From assembly GCA_947470805.1 (NCBI GenBank), contig CANIVU010000031.1, forward strand, positions 1 through 64,000: DNA of 64,000 nt. The letters are read 5' to 3'. This DNA comes from Acidobacteriota bacterium (GTDB lineage: Bacteria > Acidobacteriota > Terriglobia > Bryobacterales > Bryobacteraceae). The notes beneath the pieces are model-generated. The model did not search any database, was not told the origin of the DNA, and saw nothing but the letters and a program-made list of their open reading frames with translations. This document shows positions 33,764 to 56,589 of this stretch, piece by piece (position 1 is the stretch's first letter; each line of letters opens with the position of its first letter). Made by a program: the position numbers and the translations under genes.

Positions 33764-34252
33764 CTAATTCCGCTGCTCATGGCAGAACGTGCAATCGTTG
33801 GACACCTTCTTCTTCTGGTGGCAATCCATGCACGAACCCATGTTCGTCGGAAACTCTTTAAACAGCGCGTCCCGCGTCTCCACGGCCCCATGGCAATCCG
33901 CGCACTTGTTCACCGCGCCCTGCAAATGCGTCTGGTGCGAAAAGAACACATACGCCGGAATCTGATAAATCCGCTTCCACGGCACCGGCCGGTTGCTCTC
34001 GGCAAACCCCGCCAGCTTCTGAATATGCGGAGAATCCGTCTTGATGGACTTGTGGCACCCCATGCACTTCGAAGCTGCCGGAATGCCCATCAACTCGCCC
34101 GGCTCTTTATTCTCGTGGCAGAACTTGCACTGCAGTTTCATCCTCCCCACGTGGTGCTTATGGCTGTAGGGAATCGGCTGCTCCGGCGGCGTCTGAGCCA
34201 CCACAAGCCACGCCGCCATCACCATCCCCAAAACCAGCACCACCGTCCGCAT
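33764..34252 (-). CDS. Periplasmic pentaheme cytochrome c
   Basis: A 162-aa protein with a signal peptide (about 1-20) and five CxxCH sites: CKFCH, CMGCH, CADCH, CMDCH and CTFCH. Several lone His residues (SHKHHVG, FFSHQTHL) could serve as distal ligands. The arrangement, with FFSHQTHLQGAVNKCADCHG, resembles pentaheme subunits of the ActA/QrcA kind and cytochrome c7/c3-like proteins. The ATG shares one base with the GMC oxidoreductase stop (TAATG), so the flavoprotein very probably passes electrons to this cytochrome. AraC follows 3 nt later. Confidence 0.88.
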   Translation of the reverse strand: MRTVVLVLGMVMAAWLVVAQTPPEQPIPYSHKHHVGRMKLQCKFCHENKEPGELMGIPAASKCMGCHKSIKTDSPHIQKLAGFAESNRPVPWKRIYQIPAYVFFSHQTHLQGAVNKCADCHGAVETRDALFKEFPTNMGSCMDCHQKKKVSNDCTFCHEQRN

Positions 34253-35835
34253 TACAGCTGCCCCTTCTTCTTCTGATCAATCAGGTATTCCGACGCCCGC
34301 ACCGTCAACGCCAGCAGCGTCAACGTCGGATTCTGCACGCCGCCAGACACAAATGCCGACCCGTCAATCACGAACAGGTTCTTCACGTCATGTGTCTGAT
34401 TGAACGCGTTCAAAACAGACTTCTTCGGATCCGCGCCCATCCGGCAGGTACCCAGTTCGTGAATACTCTCGCCCGGCGGCACCATCTCCCAGTGCTTGGC
34501 CAACACCTCGAACCCGGCGCCCTCGCAAGCCGCCGCGCCCGTCTCCATGGCGTCCTTGGCCATGTTGAACTCGTTCTCCGTGTACTTCTGCTCGATATGC
34601 AGACATGGCACGCCCCAGGCGTCCTTCAACGTCGGATGAATGCTGACTTTGTTCTCATATCGCGGCAGCGCCTCGCCCATCGTCGTCATGGTGAACGCTG
34701 CGCCCTGCAACTCGTCCATCGCCTTCATCAGGTCGCTGCCATAGGCCGGCAACAGCTCCGGATTCGGCGTCCCGCCGCTGCCGAAATCGTAGGCGTACCC
34801 GCGGATAAAATTCTTCTTCTCGCCCTTCAAATTGCGGAACCGCGGAATGTAGCCCGCCCCGCCCATCAGCGTCCGGCCGCCCTTGCCGCCGCGAGCCTCC
34901 GGCACAATCGCCACCACCGTGTTCTTCACATAAAACTGATCGAACAGGTAATGCCCCAACACGCCGCTCGAATTCGCCAGCCCATTCGGAAACAGCCGCG
35001 ACCGCGAATTCAACAACAGCCGCGTGCTCTCCAGTGTCGACGCGCCCAGCATCAGCGCCTTCGCCGGCACACTGTACTCCCGCTTGTTCCGCCGGTCCAG
35101 GAAATGGACCGCGTTCACGCGCCCCGTCTTCGGGTCCACGCCGATCTCCCGTACAATCGCGTTCGGAACGATCGTCAAGTTGCCCGTCGCCATCGCCTCC
35201 GGCAACAGCAGGTTCACCGAAGAAGCCAGCGTCCCCGTCGCCCGCCGTGGCTTAGTCGTCGGCACGCCCAGCTTCGCCGCCGAAGCCTTGAACCGCTGAA
35301 TGCTCAGCGAATCGCGCGACTCGTCCAACGTGATCTTCCCATCGGGCATCTGCGCCCAGCCTTCGTTCTTGCCCGCCACGCGGAACAGCGGCTCCACGCG
35401 GTCGTAGAACGGCGATAGCTCTTCCAGCGTCACCGGCCAGTTCTCGCCAAACCCGTCGTGGTCCTTGCCCTTGAACTCGTAGTTGCTCAGCCGCCACGAA
35501 GCCCTGCCCCACCGCAGCGTCTTGCCGCCCACCATGCGGATCCGCACCCAGTAGTAGGGGTCGTTTTCCGGGTAGCTGTACGGGTTCTTCTTCTCGTCGA
35601 TCCACACGTTGGCGTCAAACTCCGACGCCTGCGTGATGTGCGGGAACCGTCCCGGCTCATTGAATCCGCGATACGGCAGCTCGTAGACCGCCTTCATCGT
35701 CCGGTGCCGCGCAATGTCGATCATCGGCCCGGCTTCCAACATCAGGCACTTCACGCCGGCCTTGCACAACGTGTACGCGGCCATCCCGCCGCTCGCGCCC
35801 GACCCAATAATTACGACGTCGTAGTCTTGTTGCAT
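34252..35835 (-). CDS. GMC family FAD-dependent oxidoreductase
   Basis: A 527-aa GMC oxidoreductase. The FAD-binding start is [18 protein letters not shown]. The substrate domain follows, and the C-terminal part has [12 protein letters not shown], with the catalytic His, and [20 protein letters not shown]. The Q-N-P form and the adjacent subunit-3 gene place it with periplasmic gluconate/2-ketogluconate/sugar dehydrogenases rather than fungal oxidases. It has no leader of its own and may be exported by hitchhiking on the twin-arginine leader of the upstream subunit 3. Electrons probably go to the pentaheme cytochrome. Substrate is a sugar or sugar acid, by inference. Confidence 0.9.
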
Positions 35836-44857: not shown

Positions 44858-45510
44858 CGCCCCGCCGCTCCCTGTTCGTGCGGCGCCACCCGCTCGGTGC
44901 TCGTGTCCAAATCCATCCACTTCACCAGCAGGTGCCCTTCGCCGGTCTTGGCCCGGATCGTCGGACGCTCCAGGAATTCCTGAAACCGGTGTTCCCGCTC
45001 GTCCACCGCCTTCACCAGATTCGGATACAGTGCCCGTTGCGCTGGATTCTTCGCCGCCTTCTCCGCCGCGCAGTCGGTGTGCGTCGTGAACACCACCACC
45101 TCCACGCCGTTGTTCACCGCCAACTCCAGCATCTCTTCCTCTTTTTCCGATAGTACCGACCCGGCCAGTCGCAGCACATAGTAGTACCGCCGCGTGTCGC
45201 CGGCGATCTCGTTGGTGTCCAATCGCCCATCCATACACGTCACCAGCGCGATCACCGGATGCCGGCTCGTCCGTGGCCACTTCTGCCGGACCTCCGCCGC
45301 CATGTGGTTCTGCTGCAGGAACTCCTCCCAGATCAACTTCGGCTCCATGTGTTCATGCACGAAGTCAAAGTTTGCCACCGGGTCCTGCAGCCGGTACCCC
45401 ACGTTGATCAGCGCCCCGCCCATGGCAAACTGCAACTTGTCGCCCCCGAGCACCCAGGCGCCCGCCGCCACCGCGGCCACTGCCAGTACAGCGATTCCCA
45501 GACGTTTCAT
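44854..45510 (-). CDS. Membrane-anchored or secreted beta-carbonic-anhydrase-like protein
   Basis: A 218-aa protein with an N-terminal hydrophobic segment (about 4-20, LGIAVLAVAAVAAGAWVLG). Zinc-site motifs of beta-carbonic anhydrases follow: TCMDGRL (Cys, Asp-Arg dyad) near residue 92 and TTHTDCAAEK (His-x2-Cys) near 141. The segment YYYVLRLAGSVLSEKEEEMLELAVNNG replaces the usual hydrated-Asn stretch. The true start at 45510 has GGAGAGAG ahead of it; a longer frame upstream is rejected. Activity as a periplasmic carbonic anhydrase is plausible but unproven. The gene is divergent from the nonaheme cytochrome operon. Confidence 0.75.
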   Translation of the reverse strand: MKRLGIAVLAVAAVAAGAWVLGGDKLQFAMGGALINVGYRLQDPVANFDFVHEHMEPKLIWEEFLQQNHMAAEVRQKWPRTSRHPVIALVTCMDGRLDTNEIAGDTRRYYYVLRLAGSVLSEKEEEMLELAVNNGVEVVVFTTHTDCAAEKAAKNPAQRALYPNLVKAVDEREHRFQEFLERPTIRAKTGEGHLLVKWMDLDTSTERVAPHEQGAAGR

Positions 45511-45687
45511 CGCTCTCTCCTTGCCGGCTTCCGGCGGTCTTTTCCTGCTACCCGCCACGTCTTACCCCTAAATGTACACGATTGTTTAGCCCGCTCCCAG
45601 AATAATTTCGCGACAAGACCGGTATTACATCAAAAAGACACTATCGGTTGCTTTCCACAGCGTATAACTTACTAAGAACCACGCAAA

Positions 45688-45726
45688 AGTGGGCGATTTC
45701 CCCACTCGGGTCACCCGGAAGTGGGG
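45688..45726. promoter_or_regulatory. Nested inverted repeats, candidate operator
   Basis: AGTGGG (45688-45693) and CCCACT (45701-45706) form one inverted pair. CCCCACT (45700-45706) pairs again with AGTGGGG (45720-45726), enclosing CGGGT/ACCCG (45707-45711 and 45713-45717). AAGTGGG thus occurs twice in direct orientation 32 bp apart with one inverted copy between. The cluster lies about 95-130 bp upstream of the candidate -10 of the cytochrome operon, a normal distance for an activator site. The regulator is unknown. Confidence 0.5.
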
Positions 45727-45797
45727 CAAATAACCCAAGTCTTTTCTAATACTTCCGAGTCAGTTAAATCCTGTCCATAAAGAGTAAGTTGGATGGT

Positions 45798-45824
45798 TTG
45801 AAATGACTATGAGAGGTGTATACT
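45798..45824 (+). promoter_or_regulatory. Candidate promoter of the nonaheme/hexaheme cytochrome operon
   Basis: TTGAAA (45798-45803, five of six match to TTGACA) and TATACT (45819-45824, five of six) are separated by 15 nt, slightly short of the optimum. A start site near 45831 would leave GAGGGAAGG and then the ATG at 45845. It would also exclude the in-frame ATG at 45803 as a translation start. Confidence 0.45.
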
Positions 45825-45844
45825 CTAATTTGAGGGAAGGCCAA

Positions 45845-47605
45845 ATGGGAGTCCCGTACATCGCTTCACTGCAACTAGATGCCTCCGGCCGTAGTAACTT
45901 CCGGATGCTCCTCCGCCAGGAAGGGATAGCCGTCGGCCGCACCGGAATCCGTCCGCTTGGGCTCCTCGGAGCTCTTCTCTTCGGCGCCGCCGTTGCCCTC
46001 GCGCAGCCGTCCGCTCCGGTCGATTGCCTCTCCTGTCACGAGGATCAGGCCAAGGTTCTCGCCCCCTCGGCGCACGCCAAGGTCACCTGCGCCCAGTGCC
46101 ACACCAAGCACGCCGACTACCCCCACGCCGAAAAACTCCCCAAGCCGGAGTGCAACTCCTGCCACGCCGCGCAGGTCGGCGACCATCGCCGTTCCGTTCA
46201 TGGCGAGCAGATCCGCGCCGGCAATACCTCCGCCCCCGATTGCGCCGTCTGCCACGACAAGGCCCACGAAACCAAGCTCACAAAAGCCGCCGAGTTCCAC
46301 AAGAACGTCCCCGAACTCTGCGGCCTCTGCCACGCCGAAGTCCTTGCCGATTATCAGACCAGCGTCCACGGCAAAGCCCTCGCCTCGGGCATCGCCGAAG
46401 CTCCCGTCTGCACCGATTGCCACGGCGAACACTCCATCCTCCGCCCCAAGACCGCCGGCTCCTCCGTCGGCCCCGCCGCTGTCAGCGAAACCTGCGGCCG
46501 CTGCCATGGCGATCTCCGCCTCACCCGCCGCTTCGGCCTCCCCTCGGACCGAATCACCACCTTCGGCAACTCCTTCCACGGGCTCGCCTCCAAAACCGGC
46601 ACCCAGACCGTCGCCAACTGCTCCTCCTGCCACGGCTTCCACAAGATCCTCCCCTCATCGGACCCCAAGTCCACCGTCAATGCCAAAAACCTTCCGCAAA
46701 CCTGCGGCAACTGCCACCCCGGCGCCGGTTCCCGCTTCTCCATCAGTCCCATCCACGTCTCTGAGGGTGGAGCCGAGCCCTGGCAAACCCGCTTCCCTCG
46801 CCTCTTCTACCTCTTCGTCATCCCCATCACCATCGGCCTCATGCTCCTGCATAACGCCGGCGACTGGATCCGCAAATTCCGCGTCCTCCGTCTGCAGCCG
46901 CGCCACGCGCAGCCCGATGCCACCCTCGTCGCCGGTCAACTCCGCATGTACCCCTGGGAGCGGTTCCAACACGGCCTCCTCGCCGTTTCCTTCCTCATCC
47001 TCGTCTGGACCGGCTTCGCCCTCAAATACCCCGATCAGATCTGGGCCCGCCCCCTGCTCGCCCTCGAAGGCTTCTTCCCCGTTCGCGGCGTTGTCCACCG
47101 CGTCGCCGGCGTCGCCATGGTCCTCGTCTCCCTGCTCCATGTCTTCCTGCTCGCCACCAATCGCCAACTGCGGGAACACTGGTTCGAATTGGCCCCGAAA
47201 TGGCGCGATTTACCGGAAGCCTGGAACATGTTCTGTTACAATTTAGGTCTGCGAGCCAACCGCCCCGCGATCTCTTCGCATAGCTACATTGAGAAAGCGG
47301 AATACTGGGCTGTCGTCTGGGGTACCGGATTGATGGCCGTCACTGGAGTCATGCTTTGGGCCAACAATTGGATGTTAGCCTGGCTGCCCAAAGTCTGGTT
47401 GGACTTTGTCATCACGGTCCATTTATACGAAGCCATTCTGGCCACACTCGCCATAGTGGTCTGGCATTTCTACGGGGTCATTTTCGATCCCGACGTTTAT
47501 CCCATGGATACCGCCTGGCTCACCGGCCGGACGGTTCGCAAGCACGCCGATCATAATCCCCCTACGGAGTCAGTTCCCGATGAGCTCAGAGAACCCGGTA
47601 AGTAA
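45845..47605 (+). CDS. Nonaheme cytochrome c fused to b561-type membrane domain
   Basis: A 586-aa protein. A signal anchor (about residues 37-54, LGLLGALLFGAAVALAQ) leads to nine CxxCH sites over residues about 60-300: CLSCH, CAQCH, CNSCH, CAVCH, CGLCH, CTDCH, CGRCH, CSSCH and CGNCH. A membrane domain with five or so helices follows, with likely b-heme ligands in RFQHGLLA, GVVHRVAG, SLLHVFLL and VVWHFYGVIF. This resembles a quinol-reactive cytochrome b561/FdnI-like module joined to its own periplasmic heme wire. Start 45845 is supported by GAGGGAAGG and the promoter; 45905 is an alternative that shortens the leader. It overlaps the NapC-type gene by 26 nt. Confidence 0.85.
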   Translation: MGVPYIASLQLDASGRSNFRMLLRQEGIAVGRTGIRPLGLLGALLFGAAVALAQPSAPVDCLSCHEDQAKVLAPSAHAKVTCAQCHTKHADYPHAEKLPKPECNSCHAAQVGDHRRSVHGEQIRAGNTSAPDCAVCHDKAHETKLTKAAEFHKNVPELCGLCHAEVLADYQTSVHGKALASGIAEAPVCTDCHGEHSILRPKTAGSSVGPAAVSETCGRCHGDLRLTRRFGLPSDRITTFGNSFHGLASKTGTQTVANCSSCHGFHKILPSSDPKSTVNAKNLPQTCGNCHPGAGSRFSISPIHVSEGGAEPWQTRFPRLFYLFVIPITIGLMLLHNAGDWIRKFRVLRLQPRHAQPDATLVAGQLRMYPWERFQHGLLAVSFLILVWTGFALKYPDQIWARPLLALEGFFPVRGVVHRVAGVAMVLVSLLHVFLLATNRQLREHWFELAPKWRDLPEAWNMFCYNLGLRANRPAISSHSYIEKAEYWAVVWGTGLMAVTGVMLWANNWMLAWLPKVWLDFVITVHLYEAILATLAIVVWHFYGVIFDPDVYPMDTAWLTGRTVRKHADHNPPTESVPDELREPGK

Positions 47606-49013
47606 GTTCGACAGTCTTTTGACGCCGTTGATTCGGCTTTCCAGAAACTGGGTCAGCCGCGCCGGAGTCTTCATCGTCACTGCCGTCACGGTTTGTTTCA
47701 TCTTCCTGCTGCCCACGATGTTCTCGGGTTCCGTCTCCCACCCCTATCTGGGCATCCTCAGCTTCGTCGTCCTGCCGGGGATCTTCCTCTTCGGCCTTCT
47801 GCTGATCCCCGCCGGCCTCTATCTCGATCGCCGCCGCGGCGGCCCGCAAGTCCTCGAACCCGGTGAACGCACCTGGAGCCATCCCATGCTCCGCCAACTC
47901 GTCGGCTTCATCGGCGTCGCCACCGTCATCAACATCGTCATCTTCAGCCAACTCACCTACCGCGCCGTTCACTTCATGGACAGCACCAGTTTCTGCGGCG
48001 GCGCCTGCCACCAGGTCATGTCGCCCGAGTTCGCCTCCTACCAGAACTCCCCCCACTCCCGCGTCGATTGCGTCCAATGCCACATTGGCCCCGGCGCTGC
48101 CTGGGAAGTGAAGGCCAAGATCTCCGGCATCCGCCAGGTTTTCAAGGTCATCTTCAATACCTACTCGCGCCCCACTCCCGCTCCGGTCCACGACCTGCGC
48201 CCGGCCCGCGACACCTGCGAAGGCTGCCACTGGCCCCAGAAGTTCGGGACCGACCGTGTTCGCGTGATCTCCAAATTCGCCGAGGATGAAACCAACTCCG
48301 TCACCCGCAGCGTCCTGCTCATGCGCATCGGCGGCGGCCATGTGCGCAAGGGTATCCACGGCGCCCACCTCGAAAACGGCGTCACCATCCGCTACCGCCC
48401 GGCCGACGACAAACGCCAGAACATCCCCTGGGTCGAACGCACCAAGGCCGGCGAAGCGCCCACCGTCTACCTCGGCAAAGACGTCAAGGAAGAGGACGTC
48501 AAGAAGTTCGAACTCCGCGAAATGGACTGTGTCGATTGCCACAATCGCCCCACCCATACCTACGATCTGCCCGACGCCGGCATCGACCGCGCCCTCGCCG
48601 ACGGCCGTATGAACGCCGAACTTCCCTTCGCCAAAAAGGCCGCGCTCGAGATCGTCAAGAAGGAGTACAAACAAGGAGCCGACAAAGAGGTGTCCGCCGC
48701 CTTCGTCGACTTCTACCGCTCCAAGTACCCCGACATCTTCGCCAAACAAAAGGCGTCCATCGAAGCCTCCGCCGAAAATCTCCGCGCCATCTACGCCCGC
48801 AACATCTTCCCCGACATGAAGGTCACCTGGGGAACGTATCCGAATAACATCGGCCACATGGACTTCCCCGGCTGCTTCCGCTGCCACGACGATGACCACA
48901 AGGCGGCCTCCGGCAAGACCATCGCCCAGGACTGCAGCGCCTGCCACGAACTCCTCGCCACCGACGAGAAAGAACCCAAAGTCCTCGCTGACTTCGGGTA
49001 TGTCAACAAGTAA
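47580..49013 (+). CDS. NapC/NirT-type multiheme cytochrome c (six heme sites)
   Basis: A 477-aa membrane-anchored cytochrome. Three hydrophobic segments (about 27-50, 58-82 and 102-122) precede the heme region. Heme sites are an atypical CGGACH (CxxxCH) followed by five CxxCH: CVQCH, CEGCH, CVDCH, CFRCH and CSACH. The sequence FCGGACHQVMSPEFASYQNSPH matches in overall pattern the NapC/NirT quinol dehydrogenase family. It probably relays electrons from menaquinol, or from the fused b561/nonaheme protein, into the periplasm, a role like that of CymA in Shewanella; this is inferred. Translation is coupled to the upstream cytochrome by a 26-nt overlap. Confidence 0.85.
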   Translation: MSSENPVSKFDSLLTPLIRLSRNWVSRAGVFIVTAVTVCFIFLLPTMFSGSVSHPYLGILSFVVLPGIFLFGLLLIPAGLYLDRRRGGPQVLEPGERTWSHPMLRQLVGFIGVATVINIVIFSQLTYRAVHFMDSTSFCGGACHQVMSPEFASYQNSPHSRVDCVQCHIGPGAAWEVKAKISGIRQVFKVIFNTYSRPTPAPVHDLRPARDTCEGCHWPQKFGTDRVRVISKFAEDETNSVTRSVLLMRIGGGHVRKGIHGAHLENGVTIRYRPADDKRQNIPWVERTKAGEAPTVYLGKDVKEEDVKKFELREMDCVDCHNRPTHTYDLPDAGIDRALADGRMNAELPFAKKAALEIVKKEYKQGADKEVSAAFVDFYRSKYPDIFAKQKASIEASAENLRAIYARNIFPDMKVTWGTYPNNIGHMDFPGCFRCHDDDHKAASGKTIAQDCSACHELLATDEKEPKVLADFGYVNK

Positions 49014-49233
49014 GCCGCCCGCCCAGGAACACGTCCCGCCCGCACTGTCCCGCCCGCCCGGGGACATTGCGGGCAGGACCCCAACAAATCCACCCCTGTT
49101 CGACCCGGCAGCATTGTCCCCCAGCCCTTCCATCCCGTCCGTCCGCCTCGCCCAGGTACATCGCAAGCCGCATCCGAACAAAAAAACTACCCACTCCTCC
49201 AACAAAATCTCCCAACAGTAAAATAATCACAAC
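49014..49233. other. Non-coding gap after the cytochrome operon
   Basis: These 220 nt contain the long hairpin listed separately and then an A/C-rich stretch before the next gene. No gene or ribosome-binding site is evident; the ATG at 49234 is preceded by a purine-poor sequence. A reading frame exists across it but has the composition of random C-rich DNA. Confidence 0.5.
49033..49079. other. Long GC-rich hairpin
   Basis: GTCCCGCCCGCA (49033-49044) pairs with TGCGGGCAGGAC (49068-49079) with one mismatch. Inside, TGTCCC (49046-49051) pairs with GGGACA (49061-49066). The hairpin begins 20 nt after the NapC-type stop codon but no T-run follows. It may stabilise the mRNA end or act in Rho-dependent termination. 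Confidence 0.45.
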
Positions 49234-50136
49234 ATGCTACGGCGTCACTTCCTGGCCACCGCCACCACCGCCGCGGCGACACCAGCGAAAAGCATCCTAA
49301 CCCACGAACATATCCTCGTCGATTTCGTCGGCGCCGACGAAATCCGCCCTGGCCGCTACGATCCCGATGCGGTCTTCCGCCTGGCCCTACCGAAACTGCG
49401 GGAACTCCGCGCCTTCGGCTGCCGCCGCCTGCTCGAATGCCCGCCGAACTTCCTCGGCCGGGATCCCCGTTTGCTCCGCCGCCTCGCCAAAGCCGCCAAC
49501 CTCGAAATCTGGACCAACACCGGCCTCTACGGCGCTGCCGATTTCAAATTCCTGCCCGCCTACGCAAAGTTAGAAACCGCCACCCAACTCGCCCAACGCT
49601 GGATCGCCGAAGCCCGTGCCGGCGTCGACGGAGAACGCGTTCGGTTCATTAAAACCGGCGTCAATCGCGGACCCCTCCACCCGCTGGACCGCAAGCTGAT
49701 CGAGGCGGCCATCCAAACCTCCCACGCCACCGGACTCACTGTGGCCGTCCACACCGGCGATGGCCGCGCCGCGCTCGATCAACTCGCCCTCGTCGAACAA
49801 GCCGGCCTCCCGGCCCGTAAATGGGTGTGGGTCCACGCCCAGAACGAGCCCGATCTGGAAATCCACGAACGTGTCGCCCGTGCCGGCGGTTGGGTATCGC
49901 TCGACGGCGTCAGTCTGCGCTCCGGCGCCTGGCACCTCCAGGCGGTCAAGCACCTGGCGGCCAAAGGACTCCTCGGCCGTGTCTTGATCTCCCAGGATTC
50001 CGGCTGGTACCACGTCGGCGAACCCGGCGGTGGCCGTTTCAACAGCTACACGTTTCTCTATACCGATTTCCTGCCGCGCCTGGAACCGCTTTGGCGCAAG
50101 CAACTCCTTTGGGACAACCCCCGCGCCGCGTTTTGA
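49234..50136 (+). CDS. Phosphotriesterase-family metal-dependent hydrolase
   Basis: A 300-aa amidohydrolase-superfamily protein with a short leader (LRRHFLATATTAAATPAK). Metal-site residues in order are HEH in LTHEHILVD, the carbamylated Lys candidate in VRFIKTGVN, His in LTVAVHTGDG, His in WVWVHAQNE and the terminal Asp in VLISQDSGWY. This is the PTE/lactonase pattern; lactones or phosphoesters are possible substrates. It lies between two facing cytochrome operons and has no obvious link to them. Confidence 0.82.
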   Translation: MLRRHFLATATTAAATPAKSILTHEHILVDFVGADEIRPGRYDPDAVFRLALPKLRELRAFGCRRLLECPPNFLGRDPRLLRRLAKAANLEIWTNTGLYGAADFKFLPAYAKLETATQLAQRWIAEARAGVDGERVRFIKTGVNRGPLHPLDRKLIEAAIQTSHATGLTVAVHTGDGRAALDQLALVEQAGLPARKWVWVHAQNEPDLEIHERVARAGGWVSLDGVSLRSGAWHLQAVKHLAAKGLLGRVLISQDSGWYHVGEPGGGRFNSYTFLYTDFLPRLEPLWRKQLLWDNPRAAF

Positions 50137-50179
50137 TCCCGCCTCGCCATCGGGGCAGGGAAGCCCTCAAACGCAGAAA

Positions 50180-50205
50180 AGCCCGGGACCGTCAGGTCCC
50201 GGGCT
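50180..50205 (-). terminator. Rho-independent terminator of the Mtr-like operon
   Basis: A perfect 11-bp stem, AGCCCGGGACC (50180-50190) with GGTCCCGGGCT (50195-50205), and a 4-nt loop. On the minus strand it is followed by TTTTC. It lies 20 nt past the stop of the monoheme gene and ends the minus-strand operon that faces the hydrolase gene. Confidence 0.85.
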
Positions 50206-50225
50206 CTCTCAAAATCCAACCGAAG

Positions 50226-50444
50226 TTAGCTCTTGCACTTCTTCAAGTCGGGCGTCGCCTTGTAGCACGTGCCAACCTTGCCCAGACCCGGCGCGGCCTT
50301 CGTCGGCTTCGCCACGTCATGGCAGGTCTTGCAGGCCGTCTTTTCCTTCTTGGAAAACTCCGGCGTCGCCGTCACATTAGACGTCGTCATAATGAAGCCG
50401 AACGAAACTACGGCAATCGGAAGCAGGATACGAATGAGTTTCAT
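50226..50444 (-). CDS. Small monoheme cytochrome c-like protein
   Basis: A 72-aa exported protein: signal peptide about 1-26 (LLPIAVVSFGFIMTTSNVTA) and one heme site CKTCH at about 38-42. Two further cysteines in GTCYKATPDLKKCKS could form a disulfide. Lysine-rich, with a mature part of only about 45 residues and no obvious distal Met in the mature part, so the sixth ligand is unclear. AGGAGG lies 4-5 nt before the ATG. It is the last gene before the terminator and about 56 nt downstream of the barrel gene, so it belongs to the Mtr-like operon. A soluble periplasmic shuttle is a reasonable guess. Confidence 0.8.
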   Translation of the reverse strand: MKLIRILLPIAVVSFGFIMTTSNVTATPEFSKKEKTACKTCHDVAKPTKAAPGLGKVGTCYKATPDLKKCKS

Positions 50445-50500
50445 GGAACCCTCCTCTATGGGGTAGATGTCGTAACTTGGAAATTTGTTACTACGGACTG

Positions 50501-52465
50501 TTATTGGATCAACCGAATACCCGCCAGAAACTGGTGAGTCCGGAAAAGTTCGACGCGATAGAACGGCTGCGAAAACGAAAACCATCGGTATTCGGCGATC
50601 ACGTGCATGTGCTTGTTCACGGGCGCTGTCAACCGCACTTGTGGCTGGTGGAACGATGTCGGCCGGCTGCCGGAGGACTGATACGAAGACCCTCCCACTG
50701 CCAGCGTTGCCGCCCCAGGCAACCGGACATCCAGAAACGCCGATACGGTGTGCCCGTTGTCGGCATACTCGGAACGTTCCCGCGTCAACAACTGCGGCAC
50801 CGTATAGTCAATCACGGATCGCATGCTGCTGCGGGCATATTCACCAAGTAACTTTATATGCTTTCCGCCCCGCGGGAGCCACTGAATCGCGGCCGCCGCC
50901 TGGCGTTGCTTCAAATCGAACAACCCGAACTGCGGCGGATTCTCATTGCGTAAGGACGAAAAGTTGATCTGCACATTCAGGTTTGCCGTTACGTCGTACT
51001 TCGCCCGCAGGCGATACTTGTCGAAATCGCCCAGGCTGGTCCGAAACAGGATGGCTGTCGACCTCGCCATCTCCACGTCTCCAAACAACGTCAGCCGCGG
51101 ACGGACCCGTACCGTCCCGCCCGCCGTCCATGTGTTCCGCCGCAACTTGCCGGCGTCAAAAATCCCGTTTGTGCTGAATAGAGCCCCGCGCGACGAACCA
51201 TCGCCCCATGTATAGCGATGGCCGCCGCGCAGGGTGAGCCAGCGGGAGGCATCGACCATGACATCGATTTGTTGCTGACTCTGATTCCAGACCAAACGGT
51301 CCAGGGTCGATGCATTGTGGAAGCGGTCCGTAAACACGCTCTCCAGAATGCGAATGCGTTGATGCGGCCGAATCTCGGCGGTCACCGTGCCCGTCGAATG
51401 CGGTTGCCGCGCCGCCGCTGCCCAGCGCAGCGACTGCTGATCGGCAAAAATCAAAGTGTCCAGATCCGTAAACAACCCTTTGTTCGTCTGGTTGTACAGA
51501 ATGTCGGACTTCGGCTGGCTGTACAGGAAACTCCCCGTCACGTCCAACCATGAGGTCGGCTGCCAGCCCGCCAGAGCCTTGCTGTAGATGCTGTGCCCGC
51601 TCACCAGGTATGTCTGCAACAGGTCGCCCAGGAACAGCTGCCGCCCCAGAAACGGGGTCTGCCGGTTCCCCGGATTCCGCGTCGTGTTGGAGACGCTTTG
51701 GTTGTCGTCAAATACCATCCCGCCCTGTTCCAAGGTCAGATGGCCTTTGCCGATCGTCCACTCCACGCCGCCGCGTACGTTGTGCGTCCGGTCGTCCAAA
51801 GTGTTTGCCACCGGATACTCATTCCCATCGGTCACAAACGTGGTCACTCCACGCCCATCGCCCGAATCGCGCGTATAGCCGAAGTAGGGAGTGAAGTTCT
51901 TCCCCGGCCGCATCACCAGCGACAGGTCGGTATACTTCCGCCGCGTGTCAAACGCCCGCTGGTTCAGGAACACGCCCTTGTCCAGCAGCGGATTGGCGAA
52001 CGACGGCATCGCATTGAAATACGATGTGTCCCGATGGTCCAGCCGCAACCGGTAGGTGGATATCTTGCTCGCGTCCAGACGGAACCACGCCGCCGGATCG
52101 CCACCCCAGCCCTGCGCGCTCATGTCCAATCGGTCCCAGATCTTCGCCGGCGCTTCCATCAGCGTGTAATGGAAACCCATCACCCGCGGACCCTCTCCCA
52201 GATTCACAATGCTCCGGTAGGTGTCGTAGGATCCCGTCACGCCCGAGTTCCAACGGTACCCCAGGTCAATCGACCCGCCCGTTTTCGGCTCCTCGGCCGT
52301 CGGTGGCGGGGCCACCTCCGGTTCCTTTTTCTTCTTTTCCTCAGCCGCAGGCGCCGCCGCCGCGGCTGCCTCCGGAGCTTTCTTTTCTTCCGGCTTCGCC
52401 GCCTCTTGCCCGGCCAGTAGGATCGGCAGCAGGAAGCCTATTGAGATTGCCTGTAGGTGTCTCAT
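50501..52465 (-). CDS. MtrB/PioB-type decaheme-associated outer-membrane porin
   Basis: A 654-aa outer-membrane protein. A leader (about 1-18) is followed by an Ala/Glu/Lys/Pro-rich linker (about 20-62) and then about 26 predicted beta strands with Tyr/Trp/Arg turns (GSIDLGYRWNSGVTGSYDTY, LRLDHRDTSYFNAMPS, YTRDSGDGRGVTTF, FLGDLLQTYLVSGHS), ending in FRTHQFLAGIRLIQ. Order and spacing beside two decaheme genes match MtrB/PioB barrels that sheath an MtrA-type cytochrome across the outer membrane. No CxxC pair near the N-terminus, unlike Shewanella MtrB. The start overlaps the decaheme gene stop (ATGA). Confidence 0.87.
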   Translation of the reverse strand: MRHLQAISIGFLLPILLAGQEAAKPEEKKAPEAAAAAAPAAEEKKKKEPEVAPPPTAEEPKTGGSIDLGYRWNSGVTGSYDTYRSIVNLGEGPRVMGFHYTLMEAPAKIWDRLDMSAQGWGGDPAAWFRLDASKISTYRLRLDHRDTSYFNAMPSFANPLLDKGVFLNQRAFDTRRKYTDLSLVMRPGKNFTPYFGYTRDSGDGRGVTTFVTDGNEYPVANTLDDRTHNVRGGVEWTIGKGHLTLEQGGMVFDDNQSVSNTTRNPGNRQTPFLGRQLFLGDLLQTYLVSGHSIYSKALAGWQPTSWLDVTGSFLYSQPKSDILYNQTNKGLFTDLDTLIFADQQSLRWAAAARQPHSTGTVTAEIRPHQRIRILESVFTDRFHNASTLDRLVWNQSQQQIDVMVDASRWLTLRGGHRYTWGDGSSRGALFSTNGIFDAGKLRRNTWTAGGTVRVRPRLTLFGDVEMARSTAILFRTSLGDFDKYRLRAKYDVTANLNVQINFSSLRNENPPQFGLFDLKQRQAAAAIQWLPRGGKHIKLLGEYARSSMRSVIDYTVPQLLTRERSEYADNGHTVSAFLDVRLPGAATLAVGGSSYQSSGSRPTSFHQPQVRLTAPVNKHMHVIAEYRWFSFSQPFYRVELFRTHQFLAGIRLIQ

Positions 52466-53328
52466 CGCAGTAGCGCCCGATTCACGTGCGAACCATGGAT
52501 CTTAACGTGGCACGTCGTGCAGTTCTTGATCCGCGGGTCGCGCAGGTTATGGAAAGCCGGAGGCGTCGTGCCGGAGACGCTCGCGTTGTTGGTGGTGTTC
52601 GTATGGCACTCCAGGCATTGCAGGTGCACCTGCGCCCGGTTGAGCATTCTGGGGTTGGCCGAGCCGTGCGGTTCGTGGCAGCTGCTGCAGCCCTCCTGCC
52701 GCACCGGCGCATGTTCGAAGACGAACGGCCCGCGCTTGTTGCCGTGGCACTTAAAGCACCCCGGTTCGTTCGCGCTGGTCGCCGCAAACGAGTTGGAAAG
52801 CGTTCTCCCGTGCACGTTGTGGCAATCGGCACATTTCACCGCGCCCGTCGCCAGGCCATGTTTATAAGGACGTTGGAACTCCGCCACCGTCCCTGCGTGG
52901 CACTGCCCGCAGTTGTCCGGTTTCTTCGCCGTCGTGTGAATCGAGTGGCACGTCACGCAGGTCACCGCGCTCCGCGCATGTCCGCCGCGAATCCGCCCGG
53001 CATGCGTCGCCTGGTTCTGGTGGCAGCTCAGACAGTTCTTGTCCGCCGCCAGCCCGTTCAGCTTCACCGGGTTCTGCACATCGGCCGGATCCACGCTTTC
53101 CGAATGTTTCCGCGCGCCCGTGTGGCAGGAGTCGCAGGAGTTCTTCACCCCCGCGTGCCGGATCTTTCCAAAGGCGCCGACAATCTCGTCGTGGCAGCCG
53201 GCGCAGGCGTCCGGAGCTTTGTACTCCGGCTGTTCAGCCTCCTTCTTCTCCTGGCTGAGGAGGGCCATGGGGAGAGCCACCAGAAGAAGAAGGAGGTGAC
53301 AACGTGTGTGGGCCATGTTATTGCGCAT
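52462..53328 (-). CDS. MtrA/DmsE-type periplasmic decaheme cytochrome c
   Basis: A 288-aa protein with a leader (about 8-25, HLLLLLVALPMALLSQ) and ten CxxCH sites: CAGCH, CDSCH, CLSCH, CVTCH, CGQCH, CADCH, CFKCH, CSSCH, CLECH and CTTCH. Length and heme number match the MtrA/DmsE family, whose heme wire runs through the MtrB barrel. The ATG at 53328 (overlapping the upstream gene by 11 nt) has AAGG just before it and is preferred over 53316, which has no ribosome site. It is coupled to the barrel gene by a 4-nt overlap. Confidence 0.92.
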   Translation of the reverse strand: MRNNMAHTRCHLLLLLVALPMALLSQEKKEAEQPEYKAPDACAGCHDEIVGAFGKIRHAGVKNSCDSCHTGARKHSESVDPADVQNPVKLNGLAADKNCLSCHQNQATHAGRIRGGHARSAVTCVTCHSIHTTAKKPDNCGQCHAGTVAEFQRPYKHGLATGAVKCADCHNVHGRTLSNSFAATSANEPGCFKCHGNKRGPFVFEHAPVRQEGCSSCHEPHGSANPRMLNRAQVHLQCLECHTNTTNNASVSGTTPPAFHNLRDPRIKNCTTCHVKIHGSHVNRALLR

Positions 53329-55309
53329 GTACCTTATCCACGCTGAATTCAGCATTCGGTCCGTGACACACAGCGCAACTCTCCCCAACTGCCGCTGTGT
53401 GGATAAAGGCGTGCGACACAGCCGCTGTCGATGCATGGCAGCTTGTGCACGCGTTGGTTTCGGGCTTCCGGCTCGTAATCGGGCCGGCCGGTTCTTGAAT
53501 ATCTCTCAGTCCCGCCGCGAGCGGTAACTGCTGCGAATTGTTCACGTGGCACCCGTTGCAGTTGGACCGGATCCCCGGATAGCCAACTTCTTTCCACGTC
53601 AGGTTCGCCAGCGTGTACGGCGCGGCCAGTTCTTTGCCGCTATGAATGCGGTGGATCATCGTGGCAAACTGCGCGCTCTGTTTCGAGGTGCCGTCCACCA
53701 GATCCGAGTTATGACACATCACACATTGCTCCACCCTGTTCTGCGTCCCGTGGAAGGTCAGCTGCACGTGGCACGCATTGCACTTGGCCGTATCCACCAC
53801 CTGCCGCCGTGCCGCCACCGGGCTCCCATCGACGGAGAACGTCATCTGCGCGTTCACCGCGATATCGTCCGCCTGCCGCTGTTTTTCGGTCCCGGCTGCC
53901 AGCTGTAGCCGCTTCCGGCCCGCGAAGGAGACTCGATAGCTGCCCCGCGCCGTCGCCGCGATCGCCGTCGGGTAGGTGATCCGATACACCCCATTCCCCA
54001 CCGCCGTCGCCAGCTTGGCGTCCGTGCTGGTCTGTCCCAGATAGTCCGCCGTCGGGCCGGACAGATAGAGGACCAGCCGGTCCAGGCTCGCCAGCGGAAT
54101 CGGCGCCCCGGCCTTGTCTTTCACAGTAAAGGTGACGATCGGCCGCTTCCCGGCCACGCCGTCATCGACGCTCTGAATCGCTACAACCATCCCGGTCAGC
54201 GTTTCACTGAAGTTCGAAACCACGTGCGCTCCGGAGATCGACGCGTCAAATTCGCTGTCGCCCTGCGGAATGTGGCAGCGCGAACAGTTCGCATCGGTCG
54301 CCTGCGCCAGGTTGCGGTGCCCCGCGCCGGTGGCGAAGTTGATATCGTCGTGGCAGGAGCCGCAATTGGCCCGGCTCGGATTCGTCAGGAACGACATCGC
54401 CTGCGCCGGCCGCTTCTTTTCGTCCGGATCCATCCGGTGGCACGTTACGCAGTTCTTCGTCCCGCCATTGGCCGGCGTGTTGATCTTGCTGTAGTCCACC
54501 AGGCCGGCAAATCCGTTGATCTGATACTTCCCGCCCGCCTTCACGCTCGGCAGGCTCGCGCCGGTGTGAATCTTATGGACCATCAATCCCAGATCCAGCA
54601 CGTTGCCCGTCACCGGGTCGCTCGTCTGTGGCTGATGGCACAGGACACACATCTCTACGCCGCGCCGGCTCCCGCCATGGAAGTTCAAGTCCTCGTGGCA
54701 GCCGTTGCAGCTTTCCGTGCGGATAATGTCGTGCGTCTGGGTCACCGCCCCGCCCGCCGGTACAAAGCTGTACACGTTGCTGGCATAGTTGGTGCCCAGT
54801 TCAAATTCCGTCAAATTCCGGCTCGCATATACGCCAATCGTGTGCGTCGCGCTGCGGTCAATCCCGGCCGGCGCCGTTGTGCGGAACGTGTATCTATAAA
54901 GGCCGTCTTCCACTTTTGTGAATGTTCCGCCCGCATCGGCTGCTGCCTGTGTTGCCTGTTTGCCCGTCGTCGCTGCCACTCGCACCCGTGTCGTGTAGGC
55001 GTTGTACCGGTTCTCACCCTTCGGCAGAACCGCCGCGATGAAACTCAAAGAGACCGGTCCCGGCGTATAAACGCCGTCCCGGTCGAGCGCCAACCCCCGT
55101 GGATCCGTTACCCGGACATCCGCGGTAATCGTTCCATTTGCGGCAACTGACGCCGCGGTTACCTTGACGACCAACCCCGGCCGTACAAAGGAAATGATAT
55201 TTGCGTCTGCGTAGAAGGCCTTTTCTGTCTCCCGGAACAGTCCCTCGTGTTCCGCTGCCCACGCGAGCAGAAAGGTCAACACTAGCCCAATCGCACCGGC
55301 TCTCCTCAT
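53318..55309 (-). CDS. OmcA/MtrC-type surface decaheme cytochrome c
   Basis: A 663-aa exported protein with ten CxxCH sites in two pentaheme groups. Group one (about residues 200-350) has CNGCH, CVLCH, CVTCH, CGSCH and CSRCH; group two (about 505-650) has CNACH, CVMCH, CNGCH, CTSCH and CAVCH. Beta-sandwich-like segments precede each group (VRPGLVVKVTAASV; RPIVTFTVKDKAGAPIP). This I-II-III-IV layout is that of OmcA/MtrC outer-surface reductases. The leader (RRAGAIGLVLTFLLAWAAEH) has no lipobox Cys, unlike Shewanella MtrC, so attachment must differ. AGAGAGGAG lies 8 nt before the ATG. First gene of the operon. Confidence 0.92.
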   Translation of the reverse strand: MRRAGAIGLVLTFLLAWAAEHEGLFRETEKAFYADANIISFVRPGLVVKVTAASVAANGTITADVRVTDPRGLALDRDGVYTPGPVSLSFIAAVLPKGENRYNAYTTRVRVAATTGKQATQAAADAGGTFTKVEDGLYRYTFRTTAPAGIDRSATHTIGVYASRNLTEFELGTNYASNVYSFVPAGGAVTQTHDIIRTESCNGCHEDLNFHGGSRRGVEMCVLCHQPQTSDPVTGNVLDLGLMVHKIHTGASLPSVKAGGKYQINGFAGLVDYSKINTPANGGTKNCVTCHRMDPDEKKRPAQAMSFLTNPSRANCGSCHDDINFATGAGHRNLAQATDANCSRCHIPQGDSEFDASISGAHVVSNFSETLTGMVVAIQSVDDGVAGKRPIVTFTVKDKAGAPIPLASLDRLVLYLSGPTADYLGQTSTDAKLATAVGNGVYRITYPTAIAATARGSYRVSFAGRKRLQLAAGTEKQRQADDIAVNAQMTFSVDGSPVAARRQVVDTAKCNACHVQLTFHGTQNRVEQCVMCHNSDLVDGTSKQSAQFATMIHRIHSGKELAAPYTLANLTWKEVGYPGIRSNCNGCHVNNSQQLPLAAGLRDIQEPAGPITSRKPETNACTSCHASTAAVSHAFIHTAAVGESCAVCHGPNAEFSVDKVHAQ

Positions 55310-55504
55310 GGTGCAAGCTCCTCTCTGACAGTTACAGTGTAAGCGTATTAAGTGGAAAAAAGGAGCTAGTAAATGAAGGAAAGTTATGGCAGAGTGGTAG
55401 GTGTAGATTGTTGAATCAAGGACACTTTTAGTCCAATAGGATCAAATTAGTCGTATCGGGTGCTTTTGGTCCTATATCGCTCCGTAAGCCGTAATGCACT
55501 TACA
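55310..55504. other. AT-rich intergenic region upstream of the Mtr-like operon
   Basis: This 195-nt stretch is unusually AT-rich for the window. It contains the promoter candidate listed separately and, at its left-hand gene's distal end, a perfect 6-bp inverted repeat GTAATG/CATTAC (55491-55496 and 55503-55508). No gene is visible in either strand. Confidence 0.5.
55345..55373 (-). promoter_or_regulatory. Candidate promoter of the Mtr-like operon
   Basis: Reading the minus strand, TTTACT (55373-55368) and TAATAC (55350-55345) are 17 nt apart, with a T-rich spacer. Matches to sigma-70 consensus are moderate (four and three of six). Transcription would start near 55338, giving a leader of about 30 nt that includes the strong AGAGAGGAG ribosome site. 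Confidence 0.35.
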
Positions 55505-56107
55505 TTACGCAAGCGCTTGCAGCGTCGCGTCCCACGCCTCTCCAATCTCCTCCGCCCGCGCCACCGCCTCCCCGCGCAGCATCCACGACGATGTCAACGC
55601 CGTTGTCCCCCCGCAAGGCTCCAAAAACAGCGCAAACGCCCCAGCTTCCTCCAAACTGACAATCAAATATCCCGGCGCCCGCTCAAACAACACTTCCCCC
55701 CGAAACACTAGTCCCTCGCCTAAACGGAGCGATATCCCGCCATCTTCCCGCGTAAATGAAAGCGCTCTTATTACCGCAGCCTGCCATTCGCCCCGGTCCC
55801 CGCCGAATCGATCCCGGTTTCAAAGGAGACATCCATTCCCAACCGCGAATGGACCAGCAGCAAGACCGTTTTCCCCCCGCCCCCGGCCTCCAACGTAATC
55901 GTGATCACCCGTCCCGAACTTTCCGTCCACTCGAAGCGCGGCCCCGGCTCCGCGCGATAGCAGAACCGTCCCGCCCACCCCCGGCGTGACCCGCGTCTCC
56001 GGCGCAAACCACCGCGAGATCCCCTCCCCCTCCGTCAGCAGCCGCGCCAACCCCGCCGCCGGCTCCTTATCTTGCACGATTCCCAACCAAATCATCTCCC
56101 CCCTCAA
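55505..56107 (-). pseudogene. SRPBCC/AHSA1-like gene broken by two compensating frameshifts
   Basis: Three consecutive minus-strand frames together read as one SRPBCC (START/Bet v1-like) protein. The first frame gives LLTEGEGISRWFAPETRVTP near the N-terminus. The second gives PRFEWTESSGRVITITLEAG and KTVLLLVHSRLG. The third gives GLVFRGEVLFERAPGYLIVS up to the stop at 55505. Frames one and three are in the same phase. A +1 shift near 55945-55970 and a -1 shift near 55770-55785 restore it, but stops lie between. Either two real indels have inactivated the gene or the assembly has two errors. It lies 20 nt after the ankyrin gene. Confidence 0.7.
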
Positions 56108-56127
56108 ACTGCTGAAAGCGAAATAAG

Positions 56128-56589
56128 CTATCGGTTGAGCGACTCCAAATACCCCACCACCTCCTCCGCCCCGCCCCGTTTCGCATGCGCCAACAACGGA
56201 ATCTTGTGCGGCCCCAACGACCTCTCAATCCCCGGAAACGCCTTCACCAACGCCTTCACCACCTCCAACTGCCCCAACATCGCCGCAGAAAAGATATCCG
56301 TCCTTGCCCCCTGGCCAATCAGAAACAGCGCAATTTCCCGGTTCCCCATATGCGCCGCGCCCCCCAGCCCGGTCTCAAAATCCCCGCCGCCCCAGTCCCA
56401 TGTCGCGTTCAGCAGCGTCGGCCGCTCCGCCAGCATCTCCTTCGTCCGGTCCAGCTTGGAGTGCGCTGCCCCCACAAATTCCTTAACAAGCGCGCCCTCC
56501 AACGGCGGCCCCTTATCGAGCTTCTTCTTCTCCTGACCAATCAACAGCGCCGCCGGCGCCAGAAGTAACGAAACACGTCGAGTGTGCAT
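56128..56589 (-). CDS. Secreted ankyrin-repeat protein
   Basis: A 153-aa protein with a leader (about 1-18, RRVSLLLAPAALLIGQ) and three ankyrin-like repeats: LDRTKEMLAERPTLLNATWDWGGGDFETG, then GAAHMGNREIALFLIGQGA, SAAMLGQLEVVKALVKAFPG and HAKRGGAEEVVGYL. Signal-bearing ankyrin proteins are common in acidobacteria; they bind partners rather than catalyse. The ATG at 56589 is set by the leader. The BON-gene terminator lies 30 nt upstream, so it has its own promoter. Confidence 0.75.
   Translation of the reverse strand: MHTRRVSLLLAPAALLIGQEKKKLDKGPPLEGALVKEFVGAAHSKLDRTKEMLAERPTLLNATWDWGGGDFETGLGGAAHMGNREIALFLIGQGARTDIFSAAMLGQLEVVKALVKAFPGIERSLGPHKIPLLAHAKRGGAEEVVGYLESLNR

Follow-up and report, generated by a model that had tools for sequence, protein, structure and literature searches.

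We analyzed a 64,000-nucleotide stretch of contig CANIVU010000031.1 (the window) from an acidobacterial genome of 8.7 Mb in 220 contigs, in which a minus-strand operon encodes, in this order, an MtrC-like protein, an MtrA-like protein, a large β-barrel and a monoheme protein, and a convergent plus-strand operon encodes CbcL-like and ImcH-like cytochromes (Table 1). We consider it likely that these two convergent operons specify a circuit that takes electrons from quinol to the outside of the cell, and that its MtrA-barrel pair belongs to a third lineage of such proteins. The minus-strand operon, with two decaheme proteins, a barrel and a monoheme protein, had been described in an earlier note on this DNA as an Mtr-like outer-membrane conduit, and open reading frame and CxxCH counts bore out this gene content. 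Frames rich in CxxCH are rare, as five stop-to-stop frames with at least two motifs were found in the window (9, 5, 10, 5 and 10), and the G+C content is 61.0% for the operon and 62.2% for the window. The mtrA and barrel genes overlap by 4 nt (52462–52465), as had been noted; the 11-nt overlap reported between mtrC and mtrA (53318–53328) holds if mtrA starts at ATG 53328 and is abolished by a start at the in-frame ATG 53316. The operon recurs in the metagenome-assembled genomes "Acidobacteria bacterium RE-9nov16-96" (barrel identity 97%) and "Candidatus Sulfopaludibacter sp. SbA3 MaE-04nov19-199" (barrel identity 94%; Sulfopaludibacter is classified in the Acidobacteriota, Bryobacterales), and more distant relatives occur across the phylum.

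Table 1. Features of the putative electron-transfer locus, with positions in the window and the basis of each assignment.
Feature	Position	Strand	Basis
mtrC-like, secreted decaheme cytochrome, 663 aa	53318..55309	-	10 CxxCH; TIGR03507; Pfam; PDB match MtrF
mtrA-like, periplasmic/barrel-lining decaheme cytochrome, 288 aa	52462..53328	-	10 CxxCH; TIGR03508 score; 6r2q_A
mtrB-like outer-membrane beta-barrel, 654 aa, 0 Cys	50501..52465	-	hhalign; AlphaFold fold match 6r2q_B
Small secreted protein, 72 aa, 1 CxxCH	50226..50444	-	motif count; homologues in L001, L002, weakly L168
Intrinsic-terminator-like hairpin at operon end, between two convergent operons	50177..50204	-	folding
Conserved mtrC leader; GGACTAAAAGTGTCC at 55420-55434 is an imperfect palindrome	55310..55445	-	conservation vs L002
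cbcL-like, nine-CxxCH c-type domain and b-type cytochrome domain, 600 aa	45803..47605	+	motifs; PF01292
imcH-like, 477 aa	47580..49013	+	3 N-terminal hydrophobic segments, CX3CH, five CX2CH; PF03264
Phosphotriesterase-family gene between both cytochrome operons	49234..50136	+	PF02126, 108 bits

The first gene of the operon is confidently placed. Its product scored 457.2 bits against TIGR03507 (OmcA/MtrC), well past the family cut-off of 209.3 and in agreement with the OmcA/MtrC-type decaheme protein first proposed, and 187 bits against the Pfam MtrC/MtrF domain II/IV; the closest PDB sequence match was MtrF (8.6e-34). In Shewanella, a lipobox Cys anchors MtrC at the cell surface, and Shewanella MtrC, unlike the window protein, has Cys residues outside its heme motifs. 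All 20 Cys of the window MtrC fall within its 10 CxxCH, and inspection of the sequence revealed neither a lipobox Cys nor a Cys preceding heme 1, so that a lipid anchor and a disulfide are both excluded. A lipobox was present in 2 of 27 MtrC relatives examined with mechanically picked start codons, both of them tandem copies from the window's genome. An outer surface lipoprotein cytochrome is mentioned in the available part of PMC6148476. As a separate observation, these tandem copies (L063:5874-10357, contig C5) are about 49% identical to the window MtrC and each carry a lipobox-like LLGC; no MtrA and no barrel were seen in this 20-kb stretch, and a neighbouring gene (L063:253-2574) encodes PSCyt1/PSCyt2/PSD1 domains.

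The second decaheme protein was assigned with less certainty. Its 10 CxxCH, counted on the longer frame 52462–53436, stand as had been described, as does its kinship with MtrA; its score against TIGR03508 (DmsE/MtrA), the best NCBIfam model, is a near miss at 185.3 bits (cut-off 192.2). The next model, NF041028 (GSU2203-type decaheme), gave 150 bits, also under its cut-off. The best PDB sequence match was 6r2q_A (5e-27), which is deposited as a cystathionine beta-synthase and belongs to an entry titled "Structure of the Mtr complex" in the structure search. An AlphaFold model was of low confidence (predicted local distance difference test score, pLDDT, 65), and its sole structural match under E 0.001 was again 6r2q_A (3.4e-9; next match, 0.11).

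Direct profile scans of the window barrel returned no match to TIGR03509, to Pfam MtrB_PioB (PF11854) or to any NCBIfam model, and a sequence search of the PDB returned nothing at E 1 or below. The same holds largely for 21 relatives collected beside MtrC and MtrA, of which TIGR03509 matched none, PF11854 matched four weakly (best 0.0038) and NF041027 (GSU2204) matched ten weakly (best 3e-7, below cut-off). Because these direct profiles gave nothing useful, profile-profile and fold comparisons were applied. With hhalign, the 21-barrel family matched 15 TIGR03509 barrels at 99.2% probability (E 2.7e-19, 580 columns) and GSU2204 barrels at 98.5%, compared with 6.8% for the unrelated Porin_O_P and at most 1.5% for reversed versions (reversed MtrB, 1.5%). 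These values alone are not proof: owing to a repeat artefact, the family scored 88% against its own profile in reverse, and TIGR03509 barrels scored 61% against Porin_O_P. The AlphaFold model of the window barrel (pLDDT 80, predicted template modelling score 0.72, 29 strand segments) retrieved 6r2q_B (MtrB) as the first Foldseek hit (E 1.3e-15, template modelling score 0.65/0.66), ahead of a TonB-type receptor (2.6e-8, 0.35). Together, profile-profile comparison and predicted fold indicate that the barrel is a distant MtrB homologue forming its own subfamily, in a sister lineage of MtrB/PioB and not within MtrB/PioB proper. The MtrB/PioB-type label given earlier thus needs amending: profile searches, which had been named as able to refute it, came out half against it, with kinship visible to the more sensitive methods.

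The trees of the decaheme partner point in the same direction. In a tree of 31 window-type and 18 TIGR03509-type MtrA rows, the two types split on one branch with support of 100/100 (of 20 TIGR03509 loci, L089, L094 and L095 gave no usable MtrA). When 19 GSU2204-type rows and Shewanella MtrA were included, each type occupied one side of a branch (100/99, 100/100 and 96/85), and Shewanella MtrA grouped with the TIGR03509 type; this tree also omits L064, the second MtrA rows of L069 and L077, and L097, L098 and L102. The decaheme tree splits exactly by barrel type, which argues that decaheme and barrel are inherited as a pair. On these sequence comparisons, the window MtrA and barrel form a third lineage of MtrAB, separate from the Shewanella/PioB and GSU2204 types.

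We next profiled how widely this lineage is distributed. Among 297 acidobacterial genomes, TIGR03509 found matches in 62 (24 above cut-off) and NF041027 in 89 (27 above cut-off); in the window's genome, profile searches found no match to TIGR03509 and none to the GSU2204 family. MtrC exceeded its cut-off in 43 of the 297 genomes. One family (f23) accounts for 24 of these, none with a window-type barrel match, and 18 of the 19 MtrC genomes outside it carry a window-type barrel. Within the family of the window, 115 of 121 genomes gave a match to the barrel profile; this is not a count of full conduits, because the profile includes the barrel of L064, part of an MtrA-barrel pair that lacks MtrC. 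MtrC was above cut-off in 92 of the 121, and at least 64 have MtrC no farther than 4 kb from a barrel. The conserved gene order noted earlier extends to every locus retrieved, with C-A-B in 18/18 phylum and 20/20 family loci, all picked for MtrC near a barrel (the phylum loci represent 18 of 61 other genomes with a barrel match, selected for MtrC beside the barrel). Two further arrangements were observed: the window's genome holds the L064 pair, a second and diverged one, on contig C23 (L064:8950-11939), and in genome G131 (contig C107; L069:5909-10192 and L084) a conduit of the window type stands next to an MtrA-MtrB pair of the TIGR03509 type.

The earlier note overlooked what, judging from sequence, is the inner-membrane half of the system, namely the CbcL-like and ImcH-like quinol oxidoreductases encoded by plus-strand neighbours whose genes overlap by 26 nt. 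In the CbcL-like protein, nine CxxCH precede a cytochrome b561-type domain (PF01292, 48.7 bits, cut-off 30.1, residues 384–562). The ImcH-like protein has hydrophobic segments at 30–48, 58–76 and 107–125, an atypical CX3CH at 139 that is invariant in 11/11 aligned sequences, and five CX2CH, and scores 41.7 bits against PF03264 NapC/NirT (cut-off 24.1). Features reported for ImcH, in the part of PMC6295460 available (Zhong 2018), are three transmembrane segments, a CX3CH beside them and 5–9 CX2CH; the CbcL/MtoC/MtrH layout given there comprises 3–23 CX2CH followed by a cytochrome b domain with six transmembrane segments. The window ImcH-like protein shows the reported ImcH features, and the CbcL-like protein shows the combination of CX2CH motifs with a cytochrome b domain.

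That the two operons are adjacent by chance, the conduit being fed by other inner-membrane enzymes, is the alternative that survives best, although we hold it to be unlikely. It would fit the convergent orientation of the operons, the unrelated gene in between and the fact that 13 of 19 mtrCAB genomes carry imcH away from the mtr cluster. These 19 conduit genomes contain 21 ImcH-like genes, two of which are short or match weakly; six of the genomes, from six families and in differing arrangements, have imcH no more than 7 kb from mtrCAB. Excluding the window's genome, the count is 5/18 against 0.08 expected. Six of the 19 have a CbcL-like gene at most about 2.5 kb from mtrCAB. Within the family, imcH occurs within 20 kb of MtrC or the barrel in at least 26 of 98 ImcH-bearing genomes (about 2 expected), within 10 kb in at least 24 (1.1 expected) and within 5 kb in at least 23 (0.7 expected), all lower bounds with the MtrC side represented by its 129 strongest matches. 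The expectations are Poisson figures that assume 2.5 loci and 1.1 imcH per genome of 6.3 Mb (5.3 Mb for the phylum set) and ignore shared ancestry, the genomes not being independent. Clustering this far above expectation speaks against chance, as do two unrelated loci, L073 and L178, in which an imcH-like gene sits inside the mtr operon, between mtrC and mtrA. The L178 gene is of interest in its own right (L178:9316-11949; genome G359, contig C1), as its ImcH-like part continues into a C-terminal extension that adds 12 CX2CH, giving a protein of 877 aa with 17 CX2CH plus the CX3CH; it is possible that this fusion carries electrons from quinol towards the outer membrane along one chain.

From the gene content, heme motifs, homology, predicted fold, co-inheritance and genomic clustering observed here, we infer how the quinol-to-outside circuit would assemble, how and in which direction electrons would flow and which acceptor they would reach. 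The CbcL-like and ImcH-like proteins would oxidise (mena)quinol at the inner membrane, probably each in its own potential range, and release the electrons into the periplasm, where a periplasmic carrier would take them on to MtrA. Decaheme MtrA would sit within the MtrB-like barrel and move electrons through the outer membrane to MtrC at the cell surface; from MtrC they may go to Fe(III)/Mn(IV) minerals, to humic quinones or to some other acceptor outside the cell. The monoheme protein may have an accessory role in the periplasm. The available part of PMC6148476 assigns the two Geobacter proteins to acceptors of different potential, CbcL to those below about -0.1 V and ImcH to those above it, and by this split the locus would give one wire two gates.

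The same conduit run inward, with Fe(II) or another donor feeding electrons through MtrC, MtrA and the barrel to quinone via the CbcL/MtoC-like protein, as in MtoAB/PioAB iron oxidisers, is somewhat less probable still than a chance arrangement. Precedents exist for such reversal, as CbcL/MtoC/MtrH homologues have been linked to flow in either direction (PMC6295460) and MtrA/MtrB homologues operate inward in Rhodopseudomonas (PMC8805035). We favour outward flow because MtrC is present and because ImcH has so far been implicated solely in quinol oxidation, as stated in the available part of PMC6295460. Far less credible is an extracellular terminal reductase module, in which a DmsE-like MtrA and the barrel would feed a non-MtrC enzyme (e.g. 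a DMSO or iodate reductase) and MtrC would be a side branch: the top NCBIfam model for MtrA is indeed named for the DmsE family, but no molybdopterin oxidoreductase was found among the open reading frames scanned around the operon (part of those in the window), and mtrC, which opens the operon, stands beside the window-type barrel throughout the loci retrieved. Least credible of all is that the barrel is an unrelated porin next to MtrC and MtrA, with no membrane-spanning wire, a view that would fit its missing MtrB/PioB profile and PDB sequence matches and that the profile-profile, fold and co-inheritance evidence has already largely refuted.

Several observations weigh against the quinol-to-outside circuit and its conduit. 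The barrel fails the MtrB/PioB profiles, and its hhalign result is clouded by the reversed-profile and Porin_O_P matches; MtrA falls just under its family cut-off and its structure model is of low confidence; judged from its sequence, an MtrC without a lipoprotein Cys would attach to the surface differently from that of Shewanella; the C-terminal half of the CbcL-like protein has four, not six, hydrophobic segments above threshold; and imcH is not near mtrCAB in most conduit genomes, with clustering statistics that treat related genomes as independent. An Mtr-like outer-membrane conduit is nonetheless the best reading of the minus-strand operon, with MtrC above cut-off, MtrA and the barrel finding 6r2q_A and 6r2q_B as their best matches, and a conserved order. 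We take the conduit to be real and probably working, and the organism would then, as the earlier note proposed, exchange electrons with solids.

Compared with known systems, the locus resembles Shewanella MtrCAB (6r2q) in its C-A-B order, in two decaheme cytochromes with a large barrel and in the best structural matches of barrel and MtrA. It differs in that its barrel and MtrA belong to another tree lineage (Shewanella MtrA falling with the TIGR03509 type), its MtrC lacks a lipobox and non-heme Cys, and its barrel lacks Cys. With the GSU2203/GSU2204 pair (NF041028/NF041027) it shares the second-best MtrA model and the weak NF041027 matches in 10/21 barrel relatives; unlike that pair, the window proteins are below all cut-offs and form a separate decaheme clade, and the GSU2204-type barrels found here carry one CxxCH whereas the window barrel has none. 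The plus-strand genes, likened by description, resemble Geobacter ImcH (three transmembrane segments, CX3CH, five CX2CH) and CbcL (nine CX2CH and a cytochrome b domain). Unlike those of Geobacter, they adjoin mtrCAB, and the part of PMC6295460 available reports no mtrAB or mtoAB adjacent to imcH. Desulfuromonas acetexigens expresses an Mtr conduit together with ImcH/CbcL homologues (PMC12133095, 2025) and thus likewise combines Mtr with ImcH/CbcL in one organism; unlike the window, it belongs to the Desulfobacterota, and the available part of that report does not describe its Mtr and ImcH/CbcL genes as one cluster.

An mtrCAB in Bryobacterales is not new. In the part of PMC8805035 available (Baker 2022), mtrCAB from five Acidobacteriia (Bryobacterales) is listed as Group 5, with a tetraheme cytochrome right behind mtrB and no quinone oxidoreductase nearby. 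The window conduit shares the bacterial order and gene cluster of Group 5, and a tetraheme follows mtrB in 11/20 family loci, which points to Group 5 identity; judged against that description, it is probably a member. The window differs from the Group 5 description in having a monoheme after mtrB and adjacent quinone oxidoreductases. It is thus a distinct, under-recognised variant, whose recurrent inner-membrane partner is absent from the surveys of PMC8805035 and PMC6295460, as far as the available parts of these sources go. We recognised no description of an acidobacterial imcH-mtrCAB link in a literature search that was mostly short of full texts and did not include subscription journals.

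Bryobacterales are common in soils. The usual view attributes the reduction of metals and humics in soils and lakes to Geobacter, Shewanella and their relatives; should the conduit work, a route for extracellular electron transfer would be predicted for a large acidobacterial group that is poorly represented in culture. Screens based on TIGR03509 miss these barrels (0/21 barrels scanned were matched). Gene clustering ties the inner-membrane gate to the outer-membrane wire, and the imcH-mtrCAB link yields a testable prediction of which quinol oxidase feeds the conduit. More tentatively, and with the odds somewhat against it, Bryobacterales may inherit as a family trait a circuit joining Geobacter-type gates (CbcL, ImcH) to the third, independently evolved MtrAB lineage, such that mineral and humic respiration would be a default ability of the group and not that of specialists, missed as the barrel escapes standard profiles; the 12-heme arm of the L178 fusion might span the periplasm to reach MtrA.

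Around the operon, the strong terminator claimed earlier is supported by folding (-30.7 kcal/mol, z -3.9), though the hairpin is absent from the output of a simple terminator pattern scan. The promoter candidate fared worse: a sigma-70 scan of 45400–56000 gave one match, on the plus strand at 52203, versus 2.3 expected by chance, and none upstream of mtrC. The mtrC leader (about 136 nt) is likely regulatory; 132/136 of its positions are identical to L002, compared with 86% identity for mtrC and 74% for its third codon positions. Its palindrome (GGAC-N7-GTCC) was rejected as a regulon site because it occurs once in the genome when up to three mismatches are allowed and because 16 family loci lacked it upstream of mtrC; a different GGAC-GTCC site lies inside mtrC of L180. 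The monoheme protein has no other His or Met beyond its signal-like stretch, and is a weak candidate for a conserved component, with homologues in L001, L002 and L168 alone. The phosphotriesterase gene is probably not part of the conduit and was rejected as such, since in L001 two diverged fragments are all that is left of it (L001:7219-7941) between flanking cytochromes about 97% identical to those of the window.

Upstream of mtrC, a minus-strand gene (55504–56200) appears split over reading frames and is probably decayed. Elsewhere in the window, a five-CxxCH protein encoded on the minus strand (33764–34252) is weakly like QrcA (86 bits, cut-off 180); it adjoins a GMC-type oxidoreductase (34252–35835), with which it possibly forms a membrane or periplasmic dehydrogenase unit.

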